Source of the DNA: Roseococcus microcysteis | Lineage (GTDB): Bacteria > Pseudomonadota > Alphaproteobacteria > Acetobacterales > Acetobacteraceae | DNA length: 64,000 nt | Direction of reading: 5' to 3' | NCBI RefSeq assembly: GCF_014764365.1 | Contig: NZ_CP061718.1 | Location: forward strand, 1,612,001-1,676,000 | In this document: piece by piece, positions 44,153 to 46,389 of the stretch | Layout: the number at the start of each line of letters is the position of its first letter | Position numbering within the stretch: the first letter of the stretch is position 1 | Position numbers and translations under genes: made by a program | Notes under the pieces: model-generated | What the model was told of the DNA's origin: nothing | Databases searched by the model: none | What the model saw: the letters and a program-made list of their open reading frames with translations, nothing else

Positions 44153-44260
44153 TGGTCCGTGCAAACTTATTTGTTCCAAGGGACACCGAGCTGTTCCGAG
44201 GCACGGCACGTAAATGTGCGATTCCCGCACCTTTGGCTTCTCTCGATGGGGGATGTGGAC

Positions 44261-44818
44261 ATGTCCGATCATCACTCCCCCGTATCGCCGCCCCCGGGGG
44301 ATGTCGCCGGGCTCGCCGTGCCGCTGGAGCGGGACGTCTTCCTCCGCCGCCTGCTGCGGGAGCTTTCGGGCGCCCTCGAGGATGTGGTCGGGCTGGAAGA
44401 GGCCTCGGGCTACATCAGCCTCGTGGGCGCCGCCATGGGCGAGCACATCCACGATGAATATCGCCGCGCCCTGGCGGTAGGGCGCCTCGACCGCCGGCAG
44501 CTTGCCGAGGTCCTGGTGGACCTGAAGCGCCGCATCCATGGCGATTTTTCCATCCTCGAGGAGGATGAGAACCAGATCGTCTTCGGCAACACCGCCTGCC
44601 CCTTCGGCGATTTCGTGCAGGGGCGGCCCTCGCTCTGCATGATGACCTCCAACGTCTTCGGCGCCATCGCGGCCGAGAGCCAGGGCTATGCGGCCGTGCG
44701 CCTGGAGCGGACGATCGCGGCCGGAGACCCCGCCTGCCGGGTGGTCGTGCTGCTCCGCCCCGACGAGGCTGCAACGCCAGGGGCCCGGGAGTACTTTCGT
44801 CGAGATGACGTTGGCTGA
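44261..44818 (+). CDS. Methanogen output domain 1 (MetOD1)-like protein
   Basis: A 185-aa soluble protein. The first 80 residues are helical with [22 protein letters not shown]-type character; the second half has the Cys-bearing segments [12 protein letters not shown] and [16 protein letters not shown], and ends [15 protein letters not shown], which fits the MetOD1 output domain as I know it. The three Cys may bind a cofactor. It overlaps the kinase gene by 14 nt, so it is probably the sensing partner of that kinase. The start at 44261 has GGGGGAT about 10 nt upstream. Confidence 0.75.
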
Positions 44819-45878
44819 AGGCGCGGCCCAGGTGCTCCAGACCCTACCCGAACCCGCACTCGTCCTGGGCACCGATGCGCGGATCGGCTTCGCGAACCGG
44901 GCGGCGCGGGCGCGCTTCGGCGCGGGCGTGGAGGCGGGCGCGGACCTCACCGCCCTGGGCCCCGACCCGGCGGCGGCCGAGCGGATGCGGCAATGGCTGC
45001 GGCGCTGCTCGGGCAGCCGCACCGCCCTGCCGGGCGCGTTGCAGCTGCGCGGCGCCGACGGCCAGGTGACCCGGTTCCGTGGCTTCGGCGCCATCCTCGC
45101 CCCCGCGGGGGCCGAAAGCCGCGCCAAGCTTCTGCTGCGCCTGGTGGACCGCGAGGATGACCGCTTCCCCCTGCTGGGCCGCAAGCTCGACGAACTGAAC
45201 ATCGAGATCAGCCGCCGGCGGCGCGCCCAGCTTGCCCTTGAGGTCGCGGTGCAGGACCGGGACGTGCTGCTGAACGAGCTGCACCACCGGGTGAAGAACA
45301 ACATCCAGATGCTGGTGGGCATGCTGGCCATGACCCGTCGCGCCGCGGCCTGGGCGACGGACCCGCAGGCGGTGCTGGCCGAAGCCTCGCGCCGCCTGGC
45401 GGCGGTCGGCACGGTCCACCAGATGCTGTACCTGGGCGACAATCTGCGTGGCGTACCGGGCGAGACCTTCCTGCAACAGGTGGCCGGCGCGGTGCTGGCC
45501 AGCATGGGGGTGCCCCACAGCGTCAGCCTCTCGGCGGACCCGCTCGAGATCTCGAACGATGCCGCCGTGCCGCTCGGCCTCGTTCTTCACGAATTGTTGG
45601 TCAATGCCGTGAAGCATGGCTGCCCGGACGGCGTGGAGCCAGGCGGCATTCGCGTCTCCCTCCGACGCCTTGAGGGTGCGCTGGTCGAGCTGCGGGTCGA
45701 GGATGATGGACCCGGCTTCACGCTCGACGCCGCAACCCGCGTGGGCGCAACCGGGTTGAAGCTGGTGCTCGGACTTGCGCGGCAGTTAAATGGTGAACTG
45801 TCGGTGACACCGGGCGCGGTGGGAGGGACCTGCGCGGTGCTGCGTTTTCCGGCATCGGTCGACCCGCCGAAGGAATGA
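44805..45878 (+). CDS. HisKA_2-type sensor histidine kinase
   Basis: A 357-aa cytoplasmic kinase with no membrane segment. A PAS-like sensor covers residues 1-120 ([22 protein letters not shown]). The H-box is [20 protein letters not shown] near residue 160, which marks the HisKA_2 class; the ATPase part has the N-box [14 protein letters not shown], then DDGPGF and [12 protein letters not shown]. It probably receives its input from the overlapping MetOD1-like protein and phosphorylates the next gene's product. Confidence 0.92.
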
Positions 45879-45894
45879 AAGGAGTGCGACGGAC

Positions 45895-46389
45895 ATGTCG
45901 CAGGTGAAGGATCGCGGCGAAACCGTCATGGCGCAGGGCGATGCCGAACGGCCCGGGCGCATGGTGCGCGCGGCCGATGACCGCCAGGGCGGCGTCGAGC
46001 TCCCGCGCGGACGTGTGCTGATCGTCGAGGATGAGTTCTTCGTGGCCATGGATGCCGAGGACAGCCTGACGGCCGCCGGCTTCACCGTCATCGGCATCGC
46101 CGCCACGGCGGAGGCGGCCGTGACCCTGGCCGAATCGCAATCGCCCGACATCGTGCTGATGGACATCCGCCTCGTCGGCCGGCGGGACGGCATTGATGCC
46201 GCGGCCGAAATCCGCGACCGCTTCGGCATCCCCTCCGTCTTCGCCACGGCCCATTCGGACCCCACCACCCGCCACCGGGCGGAGGTGGCGGCGGCGCCGC
46301 TCGGCTGGCTGTCCAAGCCCTATACGCGGACCGAAGTCACCAACGCCCTCGGTCGCGCCCTGCTGCGCTACCGGCAGGAACGCGGCTGA
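45895..46389 (+). CDS. Single-domain response regulator
   Basis: A 164-aa CheY-like receiver with a 37-residue unconserved N-terminal extension. Acidic pocket EDEFF, phospho-acceptor Asp in IVLMDIRLVGRRDG, Thr/Ser in FATAHSD and Lys in LSKPYT are all present. There is no DNA-binding output domain, so it acts through protein contact or as a phosphate shuttle. It is 16 nt downstream of the kinase gene. Confidence 0.92.
   Translation: MSQVKDRGETVMAQGDAERPGRMVRAADDRQGGVELPRGRVLIVEDEFFVAMDAEDSLTAAGFTVIGIAATAEAAVTLAESQSPDIVLMDIRLVGRRDGIDAAAEIRDRFGIPSVFATAHSDPTTRHRAEVAAAPLGWLSKPYTRTEVTNALGRALLRYRQERG

Follow-up and report, generated by a model that had tools for sequence, protein, structure and literature searches.

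Several described systems place a small sensor gene beside the gene for a signalling enzyme. For H-NOX, a stand-alone sensor gene lies beside a co-encoded kinase or diguanylate cyclase (GGDEF) gene, and the neighbours given in PMC8738867 include kinase, GGDEF/EAL and FIST genes. In the NosP system, a FIST auxiliary sensor, the soluble kinase NosK and the response regulator NosR share one operon (PMC12570481). The literature consulted places the protein family MetOD1 (PF18546) in archaea. Methanogens have it as REC-MetOD1, REC-PAS-MetOD1 or a lone protein, and it was proposed, from sequence, to be similar to HNOB, V4R and ATC hydrolase (PMC5847659). Archaeal MetOD1 is not described there as an upstream partner of bacterial PAS proteins. 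Full-text literature searches, with most subscription papers outside their coverage, found no study of a bacterial MetOD1-PAS pair.

The locus studied here lies in the window, by which we mean the whole 64,000-nucleotide stretch of Roseococcus microcysteis DNA that was analysed. It consists of three co-directional genes on the + strand. The first (44261..44818; 185 aa, with an alternative in-frame ATG start at 44246 on the + strand) encodes a MetOD1 protein, which matches PF18546 with E 1.3e-20 and 74.3 bits (curated cut-off 23.8). The second (44805..45878; 357 aa) encodes a HisKA_2 histidine kinase. Both the HisKA_2 dimerisation/phosphoacceptor region (45276..45497, residues 158-231; 53.5 bits) and the HATPase_c catalytic region (45567..45854, residues 255-350; 42.6 bits) score above the Pfam cut-off. 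An N-terminal PAS domain (44823..45242), placed by a profile and a structure model, is matched weakly in Pfam by PAS_8/PAS_4 (E 0.015-0.02). The third gene (45895..46389; 164 aa) encodes a stand-alone receiver, with the receiver domain proper at 46015..46350 (residues 41-152; Response_reg 60.6 bits) and no Pfam output domain. Direct reading shows AAGGAG, resembling a ribosome binding site, 10 nt upstream of this gene (45879..45884). No likely transmembrane stretch is present in MetOD1, the kinase or the receiver (highest 19-residue Kyte-Doolittle means 1.08, 1.30 and 1.59, respectively). A preliminary description of this DNA had reported these three genes, a 14-nt overlap between the first two, a soluble kinase with a PAS-like domain and a receiver lacking an output domain. 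All of this was borne out by the open reading frames, Pfam, hydropathy and the modelled PAS fold; the overlap is 44805-44818. MetOD1 is present in a single copy in the genome (one contig, 4.2 Mb).

The arrangement resembles that of the NosP operon, with a proposed auxiliary sensor, a soluble kinase and a response regulator. The two differ in the fold of the sensor, in NosK having no recognised sensor domain and in NosR having an output domain. A direct parallel is seen in Nostoc (L119 984-6943), where a FIST-kinase set lies just upstream of a MetOD1-kinase pair. The upstream genes encode a receiver-kinase, a FIST protein and a kinase. A FIST protein that clusters with this one also occurs in three other Nostoc loci. 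Across 80 loci, clustering of neighbours gave mostly lineage-specific synteny and common families, and no neighbour that names a ligand, the FIST gene near the Nostoc copies apart.

We then asked which part of the locus is conserved. Named genomes were scanned with an alignment of 17 MetOD1 sequences and the best 80 of 453 matches were kept. These 80 span Alpha-, Beta- and Gammaproteobacteria and Cyanobacteria. Further assemblies among them are labelled Planctomycetota, Nitrospira, Acidobacteriota, Armatimonadetes and others, labels that may be wrong where the assembly is a MAG. The closest named relatives in this set are Roseococcus species, with 96% identity. In 79 of the 80 loci, a signalling gene on the same strand comes next downstream, with a gap of between -122 and +176 nt. 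The 80th locus (L078) meets the end of its contig about 110 nt after MetOD1 and was dropped from the counts. In two loci, L089 and L052, the kinase ORF was taken in place of the one picked automatically. L052 was omitted from alignment A2, since its match extended beyond a stop codon; its kinase is still counted. Outputs of the partners vary between HisKA_2, HisKA, hybrid kinase and GGDEF-EAL. Pfam finds HisKA_2 in 45 of the 79, HisKA in 29, GGDEF in 3 (L095, L101 and L121), EAL in 3, HATPase_c in 67 and Response_reg in 12.

By our own criterion, a receiver gene comes next in 39 of the 80 loci, and 36 of these 39 belong to the 42 partners with a HisKA_2-like H-box. Within the host family, 11 of 13 sampled loci, the window included, hold the full trio; the other two have a hybrid kinase instead. 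Note that MetOD1 is patchy, occurring in 13 of 200 genomes of the host family and 4 of 13 of the host genus. The trio is the alphaproteobacterial form; the stand-alone receiver is found mainly in the alphaproteobacterial HisKA_2 version. The preliminary description had proposed conservation of the trio as a check. MetOD1 and the N-terminal PAS domain of its partner are conserved; the trio as such is not the conserved unit.

The PAS domain, of about 137 residues, is common to all 79 partners whatever their output. A profile trained on only 25 alphaproteobacterial HisKA_2 partners also recovered each of the 54 partners outside the training set, with E <= 6.3e-16. For comparison, later regions of the same partners, second PAS domains included, gave E 2.8e-4 at best and other ORFs of the loci E 0.13 at best. 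The match in the window's own genome is E 3.7e-42. The window domain was modelled with a pLDDT of 92.0 and has a PAS fold. Among 42 PAS sequences one residue is invariant, an Asn. No His or Cys is invariant in these 42, and a Cys is found in 25.

Samples drawn without regard to neighbours gave a similar picture. Among 385 genomes of the host class, 7 had PF18546 above cut-off, as did 8 of 299 in the host phylum (two common to the class sample). In the phylum to which an Arthrospira genome belongs, 8 genomes out of 146 had it, with 9 genes. Three sub-cut-off Pfam matches (G201, G381 and G765) were dropped, the MetOD1 profile having no match in their loci. For L154-L157, L178 and L184-L191, the next gene was scored for the PAS domain only. 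The samples yielded 22 distinct MetOD1 genes, of which 21 adjoin the PAS domain; the last forms a fusion with a sigma-54 AAA+/Fis protein. Among the 21, one partner matches at only E 9e-4 (G453) and one is split over two ORFs. The latter (L153 138-1432) reflects a frameshift or sequencing error. Two genomes, G850 (also the source of L084; loci L177 and L183) and G878 (L184 and L191), each have two MetOD1 genes with a PAS-bearing partner after each.

The reverse search started from the PAS domain; for each genome, scoring covered the top 20 first-look candidates in the family scan and the top 10 in the class scan. In 200 family genomes, strong matches (E <= 9.5e-27) occurred in exactly the 13 genomes that bear MetOD1; the next match was 5.0e-11. 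Across the class sample, the top five matches (E <= 1.9e-15) all adjoin MetOD1. At E <= 1e-9, 14 class genomes matched and 6 have MetOD1. These weaker matches mix with ordinary PAS domains, and some of them (8.9e-12 to 4e-10) occur without MetOD1. Class-wide, PAS/MetOD1 reciprocity is therefore clean only at E <= 1.9e-15, and the diverged members G453 and G463 weaken the pairing rule. We conclude that the conserved unit is MetOD1 plus the N-terminal PAS domain of its partner, rather than the trio.

The preliminary description had also suggested that MetOD1 may be a sensor that feeds the kinase, and had named rarity of MetOD1 beside kinases as a finding that would count against this. The opposite is seen, with adjacency in 79 of 80 loci and for 21 of the 22 Pfam-found genes. 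Near-constant adjacency supports the sensor role as the most likely one. It also agrees with one mark of an auxiliary sensor, a sensor gene that adjoins a kinase or c-di-GMP gene. A second mark, a kinase without a sensor domain of its own, is not seen here, since the window kinase has the N-terminal PAS fold.

MetOD1 also occurs on plasmids and with other outputs. There are 16 matching plasmid records, most carrying the name 'methanogen output domain 1-containing protein', and six were examined in detail. The trio is present on plasmid pDE of Cereibacter sphaeroides 2.4.1 (L193; genes DQL45_RS22680-RS22690) and on a Sulfitobacter plasmid. Directly upstream of the pDE trio are genes for heme oxygenase and a phytochrome-GGDEF-EAL protein (L193 882-6996); a light or c-di-GMP link to the trio is possible. 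On a Streptomyces plasmid, MetOD1 overlaps a gene for a SpoIIE-type PP2C phosphatase bearing the shared PAS domain (E 1.8e-30; L195 3992-6099). STAS and anti-sigma genes are close by, which suggests partner switching. A Rhodobacteraceae plasmid has a weaker PAS partner (E 8.2e-6) and a Priestia plasmid has a diverged MetOD1 without a PAS partner (L194 2772-4597). In the Priestia case, a gene for an RsbR-like STAS protein is divergent from MetOD1. A Methylobacter plasmid record holds a fusion of MetOD1 to a sigma-54 activator. MetOD1 had no match in phages.

Sigma-54 fusions were examined at two loci (L158 1450-3012 and L197 2812-4479). MetOD1 stands at the N-terminus of the AAA+ activator and shows the motif in a variant form, LCR[MT]T. 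The PAS profile has no match in either. This bears on the direction of signalling. The name of MetOD1, and the archaeal REC-MetOD1 architecture, would fit a pathway output under phosphorylation control, as proposed for the archaeal protein. We consider this very improbable for the bacterial proteins. The pair is kept with partners that are not kinases (GGDEF in L095, L101 and L121; SpoIIE in L195), and in the fusions MetOD1 occupies the N-terminal input position, which is where DmpR and PoxR have their V4R domain.

The MetOD1 structure was modelled with a pLDDT of 83.1, residues 1-22 being below 50, and has a predicted fold like that of V4R and Bet3, and possibly that of H-NOX. Foldseek matched it to TRAPP Bet3, PoxR, MopR and DmpR with E values from 1.4e-5 to about 1e-3 (PoxR, 2.7e-5). 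With VIA-align, PoxR, MopR, DmpR and Bet3 gave Z about 14-15.5 (for DmpR, Z 14.8, rmsd 2.9, 149 aligned) and MJ1460 gave Z 10.7 (rmsd 3.8, 124 aligned). The match to H-NOX is weaker than that to V4R and Bet3 (Z 8.8, rmsd 4.1-4.9, 133-142 aligned), and the two folds may be related. This outcome agrees with the sequence-based proposal of PMC5847659. At the sequence level, MetOD1 had no match to Pfam V4R (PF02830) at E <= 1. No relative with a solved structure was found by sequence; the one match, E 0.055, was an antifreeze-protein repeat construct.

The preliminary description had pointed to three cysteines in the conserved half of MetOD1. They are C113 (codon 44597..44599, in a CPF motif), C126 (44636..44638, in a motif of 10 protein letters) and C159 (44735..44737), all on the + strand. 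Each is invariant in all 80 aligned relatives from the best 80 of 453, a count biased at C126 because one search pattern contained it. All three are likewise invariant in 33 of 33 members reached by routes independent of the search patterns. Archaeal MetOD1, in the same Pfam family, also has three Cys (PMC5847659). Conversely, there is no conserved His column among the 80 sequences. An H-NOX-type heme site was rejected on these grounds. MetOD1 further differs from H-NOX in that its partners bear one dedicated PAS subfamily and its outputs also include a SpoIIE phosphatase.

A Cys cluster is shared, together with the fold, with the V4R domains of DmpR, PoxR, MopR and MsvR. In DmpR the zinc ligands are C151, E172, C177 and C185 (PMC7264223). 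The C126-C159 distance is 33, against 34 for C151-C185 of DmpR. The position of the middle DmpR Cys is mostly Thr in MetOD1 (T 23 and S 4 of 33) and C113 is extra; hence any metal site would be built differently from that of DmpR. A DmpR-type phenol sensor was rejected, since the Cys spacing differs and the phenol His/Trp pair is missing, neither His nor Trp being conserved. In addition, bacterial MetOD1 is usually a separate protein, unlike the fused V4R domains. Two precedents concern the kind of signal. Cysteines of the MsvR V4R domain act in redox switching (PMC3729527) and, in heme-free Vibrio cholerae H-NOX, a zinc/Cys site responds to oxidants and inhibits the partner kinase (PMC8738867). 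Because of these, we tentatively favour a thiol or zinc switch as the likeliest input of MetOD1, at rather less than even confidence.

The fold and the pairing also bear on whether MetOD1 senses at all. It might instead be an ATC hydrolase-related enzyme, producing or removing some small ligand for which the partner PAS domain is the true sensor. We regard this as unlikely. There are weak matches to ATC_hydrolase (PF14196), at 16.3 bits and E 0.018 here, under the cut-off of 28.1, and at E 0.0029 in the Priestia protein. PMC5847659 suggests a related activity, and obligate pairing with one PAS subfamily fits an enzyme and its ligand sensor equally well. However, a conserved His is absent, the fold matches fall among sensors, TRAPP and BcsD proteins and not among hydrolases, and the L158 and L197 activators hold MetOD1 alone at the input. 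Strict pairing would similarly suit a chaperone that loads the PAS domain with its cofactor or ligand, or protects that molecule, and the V4R/TRAPP fold elsewhere holds hydrophobic ligands (phenol and palmitate, according to structure titles). The fusion of MetOD1 to sigma-54 activators lacking PAS, and the PAS domain lacking an invariant His or Cys, make such a role improbable.

Our preferred reading is that MetOD1 is probably a heme-less auxiliary sensor, which would dock on the partner PAS domain and switch phosphotransfer from kinase to receiver, much as H-NOX and NosP act with their kinases; MetOD1 and the PAS domain would form a portable input unit. Briefly, MetOD1 would be a soluble protein, translated together with the kinase, that binds the N-terminal PAS domain. 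On meeting its signal, it would switch kinase activity, and the kinase would then phosphorylate the adjoining receiver. The signal would most likely be read at the three invariant cysteines, a probable zinc or thiol site. Redox, NO or an electrophile are therefore candidate signals; a V4R-like hydrophobic pocket is also possible. The same unit would serve ahead of HisKA kinases, hybrid kinases, diguanylate cyclases and SpoIIE phosphatases. This reading is based on the exclusivity of the pair, on a PAS domain that persists across differing outputs and on the finding of MetOD1 at the N-terminus of sigma-54 activators.

For docking, the partners that carry out no phosphotransfer (GGDEF-EAL and SpoIIE) bear the same PAS domain. 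Several observations point the other way. In a mirror-tree test, MetOD1 gave a partial correlation of 0.35 with PAS, 0.39 with the catalytic part and 0.34 with the receiver, so the PAS domain was not singled out over the catalytic or receiver domains. No PAS partner accompanies the Priestia homologue, the G453 partner matches at just 9e-4 and some PAS matches in the class have no MetOD1. Finally, no sensor domain is recognised within NosK itself (PMC12570481), whereas this kinase has PAS.

The downstream end of the pathway is a separate matter. The trio could be chiefly a further input to the alphaproteobacterial general stress response, in which case the receiver would be an SdrG/MrrA-type hub to PhyR. 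This is compatible with MetOD1 as an auxiliary sensor, and we think it possible but doubtful. The kinase is of the HisKA_2 type and, in this genome, the receiver is second only to PhyR itself (E 2.4e-26), PhyR being encoded at 236774-237466 in genome coordinates. Like the window receiver, SdrG and MrrA are single-domain receivers linked to HisKA_2/HWE kinases, and they take phosphate from many such kinases (PMC5964349). Against this, the pair is found outside Alphaproteobacteria too, and the receiver motif is PSVFATAHSD. Membership of the FATGUY receivers was rejected because PFxFATG[G/Y], the motif given in PMC5964349, is absent. The receiver may be specific to its kinase or may feed PhyR.

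A Pfam family named for methanogens thus probably supplies the stand-alone input to hundreds of signalling proteins in bacteria, whose conserved receptor domain Pfam matches only weakly as PAS. The pairing suggests a regulator for soluble kinases, cyclases and phosphatases and gives each a testable partner. Since the trio occurs in Cereibacter sphaeroides 2.4.1, a strain in common laboratory use, the auxiliary-sensor reading is itself testable. We give roughly even chances to the broader view, in which MetOD1 and PAS form a general, horizontally mobile two-protein receptor, made of a thiol, zinc or small-molecule sensor and an adaptor PAS domain compatible with any output. On that view it would be a third auxiliary-sensor system, beside H-NOX and NosP, across several phyla. 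The sensor role, if true, would extend the small set of auxiliary sensors by one that lacks heme.
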